Part shown: one piece after another, positions 27,341-31,590 of the stretch | Position numbering within the stretch: position 1 is the first letter of the stretch | Layout of the letters: each line of letters starts with the position of its first letter | Assembly (NCBI GenBank): GCA_016712865.1 | Contig: JADJQH010000006.1 | Span: forward strand, 1 to 37,988 | Length of the DNA stretch: 37,988 nucleotides | From: Dokdonella sp. | GTDB lineage: Bacteria > Pseudomonadota > Gammaproteobacteria > Xanthomonadales > Rhodanobacteraceae | Direction: 5' to 3' | Notes under the pieces: model-generated | Databases searched by the model: none | Told to the model about the DNA's origin: nothing | The model's input: the letters and a program-made list of their open reading frames with translations, nothing else | Translations under genes and position numbers: made by a program

Positions 27341-27765
27341 GATTCATTTCCTCTTCAGCCAGAACGGCTTTAATCCCATCCGCGAATAAAACATTCTTCG
27401 CGTCGCTAAAACTGCGCACGACCGCCGCGATACCGCCGCCATCCCGAACCGCTGCGAGATATTCAAGCTGTCTTTGGTGGGTTTTTCATTGTGCCGTTTC
27501 ACCTCCAAAGCAAAGAACTGGCCACCCATTAGCATCCCGCTTAAATCCGCTTTGCCTTTGCTGCGCGGAATCTTGCCCCGCAAATAGAGAAAGTAGAACC
27601 GCAGCACCCGCCCCGACGGGTTTTTCATGCCGCCGCCGTTGGATCGCTCAAACCCCCTGCTCGCCCCCGCGCCTGTTCGACCCGCAGGTAATCGATGATT
27701 TGGCCTTGGATGTCCTGTTCCAGAGGATTGACTGGTGTGAGGCGGAATGGGTGTTTTGTGGTCAT
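27324..27765 (-). CDS. VRR-NUC domain nuclease, split by two one-base shifts
   Basis: Three frames joined give a continuous protein: MTTKHPFRLTPVNPLEQDIQ/GQIIDYLRVEQARGR, then FERSNGGGMKN...SKGKADLSGMLMGGQFFALEVK, then QLEYLAAVRDGGGIAAVVRS. This is a VRR-NUC (PD-(D/E)XK) nuclease with catalytic D-(S)-G...E-V-K residues. The needed shifts are in a G run near 27645 and an A run near 27478, consistent with homopolymer errors. The start overlaps the methyltransferase stop as ATGA. A second VRR-NUC protein is encoded at 32497-32853. These proteins are standard in phage replication/recombination blocks. Confidence 0.7.
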
Positions 27766-29810
27766 AGGCTTTGCATCGCCGCCGTGATGAAAATCGCCGC
27801 GACCTGCGGAACAATTGCATTCCCGTATCCTTTCAGTCGCATGGTTCGCGCTTCCGCCGATTGATCTGCATCTGGTACCATGCTTCGATTGCCGCATCGC
27901 ACCAAGCCTTTGGGTATCCCATCAACCAGCGGGAAAATGCCGGGTTGAGACGGCCTTGATTTTCCGTCTGAGCATGTGAGCCATTCGAGTTGACCCCAAG
28001 GACTTGACGGCCTAACAGCGCGTTGACTGGAGTATTCTGGAGTGTCGTTGCTCCGTCCTTCCAGTCCCGTGATGTCGGAGTTGCCCATAAGGTCAACGTC
28101 ACCGCGCCCGCCAATGTCGTTCCGCCAGTCTGTCCTTGCGTACGGGTATCCTTGTGTTGCGCGCCGCTCGTTACTGTTGGCGTTGGCCACCCAGAACAAG
28201 CGCTGCCTTCGATGAGGCGCTCCCGCGCCGCAAGCTGGCAAATCCGCCGCCCCAACGGCGTAGTCTTCGTCTTCCAAGTCAGCGAATACATGATCGATCC
28301 ATGCGAGGCCATTAATTCCGGCAACCTGCTCACCAAAGACGCTTGCAGGGCGGCACTCTCGGATGAGGCGGAAGAACGTAGGCCATAAGTGGCGATCATC
28401 TTCGCAGCCACGCTGCTTTCCCGCCGTGGAGAACGGTTGACAGTTGTGAACGACGATCCCGTCTGCGGTGTAGCTTTCATCTTCATCGACTGCAAGGTTG
28501 TAGACGGTGTGGGTACCGGCGGGCTCAACGGAGCGGACGAGTCCCCATCCGTGTCGTCCAAGCAATCGAAAAGACCTGACTGTCTCATACGCGGTCACCT
28601 TGTAGGATGGGCGTTCCGAAACCGGCCGACCGTCGATCACCGCCTGCCGCTGGTTGTTGATCACCCGGATTGATGCGGACGCCCCAAGCTGGTTCAGCAG
28701 TACCCGAACGCCGATCGCAAGCGCCTTCGACACTGTCGTAAACACACGCACTCGGCCACCGCCGCGCTTCCCTGTCTCCTCGTGCCCATCCGCTAGTAGG
28801 TAGCCATCCAAGAACGCGCGGCGGTACTCCTCGGGCATCCCGTAGAGCCATGCGGGAATCTTCTTGCCGTGGGCGTACTCCCCAAACTGCTCACGGAGCC
28901 ACCTAACAAAATGCTTGGAGCCGCACCGGATGCGGGACGAGGTCGGCTCCAGCGTGGCCTTCCCAAGCAACTTGGCCCCAGCGAACAACTGCTCCAGCAG
29001 GTCCGCATCGCCGACAGCTCCGCAGAGGAACACATGGTCGCGGGACACCCACCCGTCCCCGATCCAGTAGCCGAGGAACCGCGCGAAACCGGGCGACCAA
29101 ACGTCCGCAGCGTTGGCGCCCCGCACGTCAATGCGTCCATCTCGGATCGCTTCGGTCCGCGCTGCGGCCGCCTCCTCGACGGTGCCGAACAGACCGACGT
29201 AAACTGGCTTCCCCCCCTTGTCACCCTTGACCCGATACCCCTTCGACGCCTTGTCGTAGAAGTGCCCCTTGGCGGTCGGCACCATGGCGGGCACAGGCAC
29301 CTCAGGGACTTGGGCCACGTTCGCCCACCGTCGCCCTTTCAGGTCTTTGGCCTCGCACCACTCATCATTGCCAACGAGGAACGGGTGTCCTGGCGTGCAG
29401 ACGAGGCCGTGGTGCCCCTGCCCCTTCACGACCACGCACTCGGCCACATCGGAGCCGACTTCTAGGACGGCACGGAATCGGCCCTGGTGGGTCAGCACCA
29501 AGTCCCCGACGGCAACCGTCTCAATGGGCTTGTACCCATCGGTGGTCAGCACAAGCGTGCCAGCCGGGAAGCATGGACAACTTCCAGACCAAACAGGTCG
29601 GTGATCGGGCCATCCGGCGAGCCGCAGCGCGAGGCTCCATCCGCCGATTCCGGCGAAGAAATGACCTTGTTGGTATCCTCGTAGGTCGTCTGGCTGTACT
29701 TCGACAATGCTACGTTCATCAACATCACCCGGCGCGATATGGCCAGCGGCTATTAGATTTCGTAGCCATTGCGCGGCATGAGGATCGATTTCGTTGTAGT
29801 AGGTCGGCAT
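27762..29810 (-). CDS. dcm: DNA cytosine-5 methyltransferase precursor with internal intein
   Basis: The 682-residue precursor is one open frame. Extein motifs: motif I HFFAGIGGWSLALRLAGW (about residues 50-67), motif IV SGSCP|CQPFSTAGKQRG split by the intein, motif VI-like VFGEQVAG (about 491-498), motif VIII RRQRLFWVA (about 534-542) and motif X GYGNAIVPQVAA (about 661-672). After splicing (removal of residues 80-456) the enzyme would be ~305 residues, with a short target-recognition region, as in phage orphan methylases that protect DNA from host restriction. The catalytic Cys is residue 457, the first C-extein residue. The gene stop overlaps the VRR-NUC start. Confidence 0.92.
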   Translation of the reverse strand: MPTYYNEIDPHAAQWLRNLIAAGHIAPGDVDERSIVEVQPDDLRGYQQGHFFAGIGGWSLALRLAGWPDHRPVWSGSCPCFPAGTLVLTTDGYKPIETVAVGDLVLTHQGRFRAVLEVGSDVAECVVVKGQGHHGLVCTPGHPFLVGNDEWCEAKDLKGRRWANVAQVPEVPVPAMVPTAKGHFYDKASKGYRVKGDKGGKPVYVGLFGTVEEAAAARTEAIRDGRIDVRGANAADVWSPGFARFLGYWIGDGWVSRDHVFLCGAVGDADLLEQLFAGAKLLGKATLEPTSSRIRCGSKHFVRWLREQFGEYAHGKKIPAWLYGMPEEYRRAFLDGYLLADGHEETGKRGGGRVRVFTTVSKALAIGVRVLLNQLGASASIRVINNQRQAVIDGRPVSERPSYKVTAYETVRSFRLLGRHGWGLVRSVEPAGTHTVYNLAVDEDESYTADGIVVHNCQPFSTAGKQRGCEDDRHLWPTFFRLIRECRPASVFGEQVAGINGLAWIDHVFADLEDEDYAVGAADLPACGAGAPHRRQRLFWVANANSNERRATQGYPYARTDWRNDIGGRGDVDLMGNSDITGLEGRSNDTPEYSSQRAVRPSSPWGQLEWLTCSDGKSRPSQPGIFPLVDGIPKGLVRCGNRSMVPDADQSAEARTMRLKGYGNAIVPQVAAIFITAAMQSL
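27833..28588 (-). CDS. Overlapping out-of-frame ORF, C-terminal part of a WPTP/RWLMGYP family protein
   Basis: In a second minus-strand frame through the methyltransferase C-extein a 251-codon ORF runs without stops. It carries motifs I recognise from many phage hypothetical proteins: ASLVSRLPELMASHGSIMYS, LTWKTKTTPLGRRICQLAAR, GWPTPTVTSGAQ, WATPTSRDWKDG, NTPVNALLGRQV and LNPAFSRWLMGYPKAW. Its ATG at 28588 lies inside the intein coding region, 6 bases after AAGGTGA (28595-28601). The first ~45 residues are intein shadow. The methyltransferase frame is certainly coding; whether this one is also translated, or mirrors methylase conservation, is open. Confidence 0.45.
   Translation of the reverse strand: MRQSGLFDCLDDTDGDSSAPLSPPVPTPSTTLQSMKMKATPQTGSSFTTVNRSPRRESSVAAKMIATYGLRSSASSESAALQASLVSRLPELMASHGSIMYSLTWKTKTTPLGRRICQLAARERLIEGSACSGWPTPTVTSGAQHKDTRTQGQTGGTTLAGAVTLTLWATPTSRDWKDGATTLQNTPVNALLGRQVLGVNSNGSHAQTENQGRLNPAFSRWLMGYPKAWCDAAIEAWYQMQINRRKREPCD
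28443..29573 (-). mobile_element. LAGLIDADG intein in the methyltransferase
   Basis: Residues 80-456 of the precursor (377 aa) form a complete intein. Block A is CFPAGTLVLTTDGYKPIETV with nucleophile Cys80; block B is VCTPGHPFLVG. The homing endonuclease has RFLGYWIGDGWV (block C), KKIPAWLYG (block D) and RRAFLDGYLLADGH (block E), both acidic residues present. Block F is HTVYNLAVDEDESYTADG and block G is VVHN followed by Cys457. All splice residues (C1, block B His, His-Asn end, +1 Cys) are intact, so splicing and homing both look functional. The insertion lies between Pro and the catalytic Cys of the PC motif. Confidence 0.93.
29546..29728 (-). CDS. Overlapping out-of-frame ORF, N-terminal piece of the same protein cut by the intein
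   Basis: In the frame matching the 27833-28588 ORF (allowing for the 1131-base intein, a multiple of three), the N-extein encodes MNVALSKYSQTTYEDTNK, then SPESADGASRCGSPDGPITD and LFGLEVVHA. ADG..CGSPDGPTTDLFG is the usual N-terminal signature of the WPTP/RWLMGYP proteins. The frame enters the intein DNA at 29573 and stops at 29546. Thus the intein, which protein splicing removes from the methyltransferase, would split this second product into two pieces. Confidence 0.35.
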   Translation of the reverse strand: MMLMNVALSKYSQTTYEDTNKVISSPESADGASRCGSPDGPITDLFGLEVVHASRLARLC

Positions 29811-30294: not shown

Positions 30295-31590
30295 TTATTG
30301 AGCGGCTCTAATGCATGATTGAGAGCGCCGGAAACTCATCGAACTCGAAGACATACGCTGCCCGGTCCATGCCGTCGGCTCAAACATCGGTTCGGTGAAT
30401 TTTTCGGCGTCGGTTCGCGATTCATCGCGGGTGTCGGGGTCATGCCCCGGCAAGTTCTTGCCCGCTCCACGCGCTTTTAGTCCCCTGTTCCCCAGGGTAC
30501 TGAACTTCAGGATATTTTTGGCGGCGTTCTCGTCACGATCATGGCGGGTGCCGCAATCGGGACACGTCCATTCCCGAACCCGCAGCGTCATTTTTTCCTG
30601 GTAGGAGCCGCACTCCGAACAGGTTTTGCTGCTCGGCGCCCAGCGGTCTATCACTTCGATTTCCCGACCGTACCACGCGGCTTTATATTCCAACTGCCGG
30701 CGAAATTCGCCCATACCCACGTCGGCAATCGCGCCCGCGAGGTGGTGATTCTTCACCATGCCCTTGACGTGCAAATCTTCGATGGCGATGCCGTCCGCTT
30801 GGCGAATGAGCGCGGTCGTGGTCTTGTGCAAGAAGTCGGCACGGCTGGCGGCGATATGGGCGTGAATCTTGGCGACCTTGGCCCGCTGGCGGTTGCGCCG
30901 GTTGCTGCCCTTCTTCATCCGAGACAGCCGGCGCTGTTGCCGCTTGAGGTGTTTCAGACGGCGCTTGAGGTGGCGGGGGTTGCCGGTCTTTTCGCCATCG
31001 CTGGTTACGGCAACATCCTTGATCCCCAGGTCAACCCCGATCACGGTTCCAGTTTTCGGAAGCGGCTGAATATCCACCTCACACGAAAAGCTCACGAAGT
31101 AGCGACCGCTGGCGTCTTTGGAAACGGTCGCCATTTTCGGGATACCCGCTGGCATCTGACTCCAACGCACTTTGACAAAGCCGAGTTTGGGCACCTTCAG
31201 GAATTCGCCCGCGCCATAGGTGCTTTGAATGTGGCGTTGGTCGAGGGTGTAGCGAACCGATTGACGATCCCACTTCGATTTGAAGCGGGGATACTTTCCG
31301 CGCTTGGCAAAGAAGTTTTGAAACGCCTTGTCCTGGTCAATCAGGGCTTGCGTCAAACAGCATGCGGCGCTATCGGCCAGCCACGGGAATTCGGTTTTCT
31401 TCCAGACGGTCACTTGCCGAGCGAGCGAGACATAGTTGTGCTTCTCTTGGCGTTCCTTGTAAGCCGTGCTTCGCATGTCCAAACAGCGATTCCACACGAA
31501 CCGGGCGTTTCCGAATTCAACCGCCAATTGATGACGCTGGGCAGCAGTCGGGTAAAAGCGGAATTTGTAGGCGCGTTGTCTAGTAACCAT
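30295..31590 (-). CDS. tnpB: TnpB RNA-guided nuclease
   Basis: The 431-residue product is a full-length TnpB. It has the N-terminal YKFRFYPTAAQRHQLA motif, then RuvC-I VIGVDLGIKDVAV (Asp ~187), RuvC-II GIAIEDLHVKGM (Glu ~271), zinc ribbon CSECG/CPDCG (Cys ~324, 327, 343, 346) and RuvC-III RHDRDENAAKNIL (Asp ~353). All catalytic residues are present, so it should cut DNA guided by an omega RNA made from the end of its gene. Two small hairpins in the gene's 3' part (GGGG-catga-CCCC type and CGCGAT/ATCGCG, about 30415-30450) may belong to it. The last ~30 residues look like read-through into a phage gene. No tnpA. Confidence 0.93.
   Translation of the reverse strand: MVTRQRAYKFRFYPTAAQRHQLAVEFGNARFVWNRCLDMRSTAYKERQEKHNYVSLARQVTVWKKTEFPWLADSAACCLTQALIDQDKAFQNFFAKRGKYPRFKSKWDRQSVRYTLDQRHIQSTYGAGEFLKVPKLGFVKVRWSQMPAGIPKMATVSKDASGRYFVSFSCEVDIQPLPKTGTVIGVDLGIKDVAVTSDGEKTGNPRHLKRRLKHLKRQQRRLSRMKKGSNRRNRQRAKVAKIHAHIAASRADFLHKTTTALIRQADGIAIEDLHVKGMVKNHHLAGAIADVGMGEFRRQLEYKAAWYGREIEVIDRWAPSSKTCSECGSYQEKMTLRVREWTCPDCGTRHDRDENAAKNILKFSTLGNRGLKARGAGKNLPGHDPDTRDESRTDAEKFTEPMFEPTAWTGQRMSSSSMSFRRSQSCIRAAQ

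Follow-up and report, generated by a model that had tools for sequence, protein, structure and literature searches.

A second reading frame nested in an intein-bearing cytosine-5 methylase gene of a Dokdonella prophage, and its resemblance to motif IX

Two reading frames at one methylase locus

The stretch of DNA analyzed here, positions 1 to 37,988 of contig JADJQH010000006.1 from Dokdonella sp. (37,988 nucleotides in all, the window), has the character of a prophage, with matches to terminase, portal, major head, tape measure, tail, primase, helicase and lysozyme. On its minus strand lies a cytosine-5 (C5) methylase gene, referred to as alpha, which contains an in-frame intein and is overlapped in the +1 frame by a second open reading frame (ORF), referred to as beta (Table 1). 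From sequence comparison we propose, with a probability of roughly 0.83, that alpha and beta encode the two chains of one split C5-methyltransferase, in which beta would be the subunit carrying motif IX, and that the intein spares the conserved part of beta.

The whole methylase ORF matches phrog_363 (E=8.4e-77). The match of alpha to Pfam DNA_methylase stops at residue 550, corresponding to position 168 of the 324 in the profile. Both coding frames are located where the original prediction had placed them, the peptides it quoted are present, and the second frame is conserved as a protein. Outside the intein, the only +1 stops of the methylase gene are at 29755 and 29752, before the start of beta, and at 27835, its end. 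The start codons favored in the family fall within the region of the beta N piece. The beta C piece consists of about 49 intein-encoded residues followed by conserved beta sequence, and no family was matched by it in Pfam or NCBIfam. The label "DNA methyltransferase" of its PHROG match, phrog_1008, sits on this overlapping second frame, which is without a methylase family match in those two databases. The beta protein is basic and rich in W, S, T and P. The DNA of its motif-IX-like stretch reads QPGIFPLVDGIP and neighbors in the alpha frame. In the AlphaFold model of A3, blocks within residues 41-60 have predicted local distance difference test (pLDDT) values of 94 and 90.

Table 1. Coordinates of the methylase locus and its two frames in the window.
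Feature	Position	Strand	Basis or detail
Cytosine (C5-)methylase ORF (alpha)	27762-29810	minus	682 codons, with in-frame Hint/LAGLIDADG intein
Alpha N-extein, ends ...GSCP	29574..29810	minus	ORF list, phrog_363 match, intein boundary
Beta frame (+1), N piece	29546..29728	minus	60 codons, stop just inside intein; ORF list, stop map
Intein (CFPAGT...VVHN), Hint and LAGLIDADG parts	28443..29573	minus	377 codons; Pfam LAGLIDADG_3, Hint_2; TIGR01443 C-terminus
AAGGTGA, Shine-Dalgarno-like, before ATG 28588	28595..28601	minus	contains last +1 stop of intein (TGA 28597)
Beta frame (+1), C piece	27833..28588	minus	251 codons; phrog_1008 E=6.2e-29, translation
Alpha C-extein: motif IV (CQPFS), motif VIII, variable region, motif X, stop	27762..28442	minus	Pfam DNA_methylase residues 457-550
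Alternative beta start ATG (MIATYGLRSS), downstream of intein	28397..28399	minus	stop map, family alignment
Beta SLTWK..TPLGRR stretch, predicted beta hairpin	28226..28291	minus	AlphaFold model of A3, strands 38-46 and 52-60
Beta first W-x-T-P module (WPTPT)	28175..28189	minus	translation
Beta second W-x-T-P module (WATPTSRDWKDG)	28052..28087	minus	translation
Beta motif-IX-like stretch (RLNPAFSRWLMGYPKAW)	27902..27952	minus	profile match to canonical motif IX
Alpha motif X (GNAIVP), alpha frame	27807..27824	minus	translation

Protein-level selection on the second frame

Relatives of the locus were gathered first with the second frame as bait and then with a methylase bait (patterns HFFAGIG and [VL]WTGS[CP]PC). 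The methylase bait, A2, was an alignment of beta-bearing genes; its closest 80 matches were kept, and 78 distinct genes were left after removal of locus L155 and one duplicate. The null expectation for stop codons was obtained by shuffling codons among synonymous positions, leaving each methylase protein unchanged. Over the region from motif IV to shortly before motif X (16,357 codons in the 78 genes), the +1 frame contains 1 stop, compared to a mean of 184.6 in the shuffles (standard deviation 9.0; the lowest of 200 gave 164). The +2 frame of the same genes is ordinary, with 709 stops against 684.7 by shuffles, as is the +1 frame of a 5' control stretch (121 against 132.8).

An alignment of 142 genes was taken from 194 genes of both baits, leaving out genes without a YNE or CQPFS-like motif, genes outside 600-1500 bases, duplicates and the window gene. 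Over 3003 pairs of 60-98% identity, from 140 loci of both baits, differences at fourfold-degenerate sites amount to 0.317 in the core of the overlap and to 0.686 in the 5' control. Along the gene they measure 0.65-0.72 in the 5' control, 0.58-0.68 ahead of the intein site, 0.40-0.49 just past it and 0.25-0.35 from there up to motif VIII, with a minimum of 0.08-0.10 over the DNA encoding RWLMGYP. Within the variable region, differences are more frequent at codon position 1 of the methylase (0.460), where the second frame has its third position, than at position 3 (0.429). The stop-free zone starts just after two favored ATGs, found in 77 and 83 of the 142 genes, and stops at the beta stop. Taking the Shine-Dalgarno (SD) consensus as reference, SD-like bases accompany these ATGs in 53 and 50 genes, by a loose pattern counted without a null.

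A conserved second frame could in principle be a by-product of amino-acid constraint on the methylase, with no second protein behind it, since the two frames are locked together, as the original prediction had held, and codon constraint alone yields some similarity: shuffled methylases score a median of 48.9 bits against the beta profile. The real methylase genes, however, have a median of 187.6 bits, and 107 of 110 score above all 20 of their own shuffles (4 of 114 genes were left out, and the 110 include 4 seeds of the profile). Controls with motif IX in frame show nothing comparable to the stop and fourfold results. Among 19 canonical enzymes of this kind, 185 +1 stops were counted against 197 expected (standard deviation 7), and none of the 19 has an open +1 frame. 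It should be mentioned that 11 of the 30 canonical loci were set aside by regular expression; ten of these (all except L268) have 5-25 +1 stops each, and nine of the ten have a motif-IX-like sequence in frame, L262 having none in the stretch viewed. Nor are +1 stops depleted in 22 actinophage enzymes (8 of 31 loci set aside, one duplicate), which have 53 against 61 between motifs IV and VIII, and 59 against 66. We therefore give the by-product explanation almost no credence, as the synonymous shuffles and the fourfold sites rule it out as sufficient.

Because of stop avoidance, fourfold depression and the matching limits of the open zone taken together, these sequence data indicate that the second frame is a protein-coding gene under protein-level selection. 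Constraint confined to the methylase frame, which would have spoken against a second protein, did not come out of either test. The pair represents a well-supported large same-strand gene overlap in double-stranded DNA phages.

The second frame as a probable motif-IX subunit

The motifs of C5-methyltransferases have assigned roles. In the window and in the 78 relatives, the alpha chain has motifs I-VIII and X and is without motif IX. When the C-terminus of beta was compared to a motif IX-X profile of 25 bacterial enzymes, a score of 17.6 was obtained, against at most 12.4 in 60 column shuffles. The best motif-IX match lies in the +1 frame in 61 of the 78 split-type genes versus 51 of 237 shuffles, and for canonical motif IX these relatives have median scores of -9.0 (frame 0) and -1.1 (frame +1). 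By these comparisons, the C-terminus of beta resembles motif IX. A related module, LPTP..EWMMGWP, is found in actinophage enzymes in the methylase frame itself, before motif X, and aligns with beta at an hhalign probability of 93.7 (E 1.9e-7). The "DNA methylase" of the Mycobacterium phage Fancypants gene 73 type has this module as LPTP...NPRLAAAFPEWMMGWPAGW upstream of motif X. It differs from the window in that the module belongs to the methylase frame and the +1 frame is unprotected over the 22 genes. A search of the Protein Data Bank (PDB) with the beta sequence gave 0 matches, and a profile of the actinophage enzymes aligned with methylases in the PDB over the catalytic part only.

Beta was searched for in viral and genome collections, the loci inspected being the best 80 of at least 567 viral matches (from the first 600 stretches) and the best 80 of 236 genome matches. 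The scan of the viral collection confirmed at least 567 of 600 candidate stretches, and of 398 genomes from the phylum of the window, 27 had a match to the phrog_1008 family, that of the window included. In each of the 80 viral loci fetched with the beta bait, beta and a methylase frame overlap in the same phase (+1), and the methylase frame is stop-free across beta in 78 of the 80 genome loci; the exceptions, L305 and L313, each have one alpha stop in the overlap. All three alpha motifs pass the regular expressions in 56 of the 80 genome loci, and motif IV was missed in L299, L305 and L321. Of 30 phrog_1008 loci, 23 match the first beta profile and 29 the methylase profile. One candidate for a dead alpha with a live beta, L001, was dropped, as its contig ends while alpha is still open. 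In these loci beta occurs together with alpha, and the beta baits brought up no convincing standalone case in the best 80 loci of either collection, viral or genome. The original prediction of a widespread phage protein type held for its breadth; the standalone genes that it proposed to look for did not convincingly appear in these loci. The absence of non-overlapping homologues in the loci examined fits an obligate nested subunit.

Beta might instead be a real but functionally separate overprinted protein, anti-restriction or regulatory for example, locked to the methylase by chance. It has its own reading frame, is basic and W-rich, and appears as its own gene in some phage records. Against this stand the resemblance to motif IX, the in-frame counterpart within actinophage methylases and the lack of a convincing copy without an overlapping alpha, so that we regard a separate function as quite unlikely. 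The second protein, taken in the original prediction as unrelated to the methylase, is better understood as a subunit of that enzyme, the one with motif IX. Fusion of alpha and beta into one hybrid chain by programmed ribosomal frameshifting has some appeal from the actinophages, where the module stands in the methylase frame. It is nevertheless very improbable: motif X follows motif IX but is read in the alpha frame, so that the ribosome would have to shift twice, and the favored ATGs close to where the open zone begins suggest that beta has its own initiation.

In the two-chain arrangement that we prefer, a single stretch of DNA would be translated in two frames to give the two polypeptides of one DNA C5-methyltransferase. 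Alpha (frame 0) would contribute motifs I-VIII and X, with S-adenosylmethionine binding and the catalytic Cys. Beta (frame +1) would contribute motif IX and possibly much or all of the target-recognition region, as a DNA-facing small domain, and the two could then assemble into one active, methylating enzyme. The intein before the catalytic Cys of alpha is expected to splice itself out, and the conserved part of beta in the window could start afresh at 28588, inside the intein, or at 28399. From motif VIII to motif X it is the second frame that seems to hold the ancestral methylase sequence and the alpha frame that seems the newcomer, with the situation reversed upstream of motif VIII; by this inference, alpha and beta would have overprinted each other reciprocally.

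Several points weigh against this assignment. The match to motif IX is short (17 columns) and its hhalign probability is only 19.8. The best match was in a frame other than +1 for 17 of the 78 split-type genes and, among the genome loci that were scored, for 20 of 68; in actinophage genes, where frame 0 is expected, it lay elsewhere in 8 of 19. The 78 genes are a non-random sample of phage methylases, the bait having been built from beta-bearing genes and the closest 80 kept. Some windows of the poorly aligned variable region show fourfold differences of 0.48-0.67 (the range there is 0.25-0.67). From motif IV to motif VIII, five distinct actinophage genes with PCQPF (L210-L213 and L217) are free of +1 stops where 6.4 would be expected; the wider set of 22 described above shows no such depletion. 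An AlphaFold model of beta alone is poor (pLDDT 65, predicted template modeling score 0.25) and too weak for a fold search. In M.EcoHK31I, the target-recognition domain is placed in the large subunit according to PMC3404938, unlike what is proposed for beta. Throughout the family, the two-chain enzyme is a reading of sequence comparison.

M.EcoHK31I (YGGCCR) is the nearest known system, compared here by its described layout and not by sequence. Its likeness to the window lies in the placing of motif IX outside the large chain. Lee et al. are said to have reported in 1995 that an overlapping alternative frame encodes its small chain, and in the window the second frame likewise overlaps the first. 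Unlike M.EcoHK31I, the window system is phage-borne, with an intein in alpha and W-x-T-P modules in beta. According to PMC3404938, the large chain of M.EcoHK31I has motifs I-VIII and X, with only motif IX on the smaller polypeptide; PMC3439449 terms it a naturally split methyltransferase, and PMC6174562 gives the accession of EcoHK31I (X82231). M.AquI is also a two-chain (alpha/beta) split C5-methyltransferase according to PMC3404938. It differs in being split within the variable region, with motifs IX and X together on the smaller chain. In PMC9409062, the overprinting described is that of spanins. Among the open PMC papers searched, no description of a nested phage gene of this kind was recognized, M.EcoHK31I being nearest. 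The kind is thus already known from M.EcoHK31I; as far as open papers show, the new elements are how widely it occurs in phages, its counterpart within the methylase frame and its combination with an intein.

In Escherichia phage K1H (GU196278), a "putative C-specific methylase" and an overlapping "putative Mte8-like protein" are homologues of the two frames of the window; both are annotated as overlapping genes, with the overlap unexplained. The K1H pair differs in having no intein, and its record gives the second frame phage similarity only and no function. A "Mte8-like" gene is named in PMC5582158. In Paenibacillus phage BN12 the second frame is annotated as nested in the methylase gene, in a region of 44% guanine plus cytosine. 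It is open and unannotated in N15, epsilon15, Lactobacillus and Bacteroides phages, an Acinetobacter phage and others; ten such named records have 2 +1 stops against 29.9, and nine of the ten are fully open (L208 was set aside by the ORF regular expression). By record title, the genome loci are mostly metagenome bins, from Nitrospira, Verrucomicrobia, Planctomycetes, Chloroflexi, Bacteroidetes and many Proteobacteria. In L006-L085 and L270-L349, each beta ORF has between 0 and 5 W-x-T-P modules, which is reminiscent of phage methylases with several target-recognition domains, such as the Bacillus phage enzymes that have them in tandem.

A wider proposal is tentative, and we would give it less than even odds: a large class of C5-methyltransferases in phages of Proteobacteria, Bacillota and Bacteroidota may be obligate alpha/beta heterodimers encoded in overlapping frames, with the W-x-T-P modules (0-5) as exchangeable target-recognition units, and in intein-bearing copies beta may begin inside the intein gene, one DNA stretch serving as intein and beta leader. 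The phrog_1008 family can be recast as a testable subunit of a split enzyme, and synonymous recoding of such a methylase gene is predicted to destroy its activity. Natural in-frame and out-of-frame versions of one module are available for comparison.

Individual loci of the family show further arrangements. In L005 (1634-3290, Komagataeibacter phage phiKX1) and in L001 from about 3590, an ORF that looks HNH-like by eye follows the beta stop, with alpha reading on through it; alpha reaches motif X past this ORF in L005, and the contig ends first in L001. It could be a second gene nested in the same methylase. In L004 (1722-3080, Klebsiella virus KpV2811) the beta ORF continues stop-free into an annotated endonuclease VII domain protein, 453 codons in total. 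L209 (1350-1823, Dunaliella viridis virus SI2 record) has a shortened methylase, in which the catalytic part is gone and both C-terminal frames are kept (GNAI, RWLMG). Two methylase/beta pairs and a third, broken one stand in tandem on the short viral contig L075 (636-3286), and in L036 (561-1743) a single apparent frame change moves alpha and beta together.

The intein and the second frame

The intein lies between P79 and C457 of alpha. C457, the Cys of PCQ and the catalytic Cys of motif IV, directly follows it. The element has an N-terminal Cys, a C-terminal HN followed by Cys, and Hint and homing domains, and it reads in frame. As stated in the original prediction, it brings stops into the second frame, 10 in +1, which split the beta ORF. 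The internal ATG with an SD-like AAGGTGA that had also been pointed out exists at 28588, inside the intein, as a candidate beta start with GGTGA 6 bases upstream. At the column of the other candidate, ATG 28399, 22 of the 142 genes of the family alignment have an in-frame ATG (13 SD-like), and at a neighboring column 40 do (31 SD-like), both by the loose pattern. In the window C-extein, 200 codons have 0 +1 stops against 4.0 expected, and 0 of 500 synonymous shuffles were as low.

On a viral contig, L350, the same site is occupied by a related intein, 53% identical in the best segment. Its beta C piece is open over 425 codons, of which the 355 after the intein have 0 stops against 4.3 expected, and an ATG with GGTGA 6 bases upstream is found at the place matching 28588. 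Both inteins have a +1 stop 51 codons before their end, shortly ahead of the matching ATG. Over the last 50 intein codons, 7 of 17 fourfold sites differ between the window and L350 versus 81 of 107 before them (Fisher p 0.0076, one pair). This is suggestive of constraint in the beta frame; synonymous shuffles of these codons likewise give 0 stops. The L351 intein, and nearly that of L352, also finish in an open +1 stretch.

The original prediction saw the intein as a natural knockout of the second gene, so that the locus would make alpha only. The 10 stops, the favored family starts upstream of the intein and the N-terminal stretch that is nearly stop-free in relatives all speak for it. However, the part cut off is weakly constrained in sequence, the C piece of the window is free of stops and has candidate starts, and the independent same-site intein of L350 also leaves a long open beta C piece with a matching ATG. 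A knockout is disfavored, and we consider it unlikely, because two lineages keep the conserved part of beta despite the intein. On the sequence comparisons above, the intein cuts away the weakly constrained N-terminus of beta, and the conserved part stays open with candidate starts. The N-terminal part, although the least constrained of beta in sequence, is nearly stop-free in relatives and so may still matter. The case suggests a way for a selfish element to occupy two overlapping genes and leave both products intact.

A different type of C5-methylase-like gene, in L351 (2713-5424), has a related intein, with 30% identity, at its motif IV Cys. In the window, a gene with OrfB_IS605 and Cas12f1-like TNB matches (a TnpB/OrfB-type transposon nuclease) lies immediately upstream of the methylase, at 30295-31590 on the minus strand. 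Downstream, at 27344-27897 on the minus strand, two overlapping ORFs without Pfam matches look, by eye, like one small nuclease-like gene split by a frame change.

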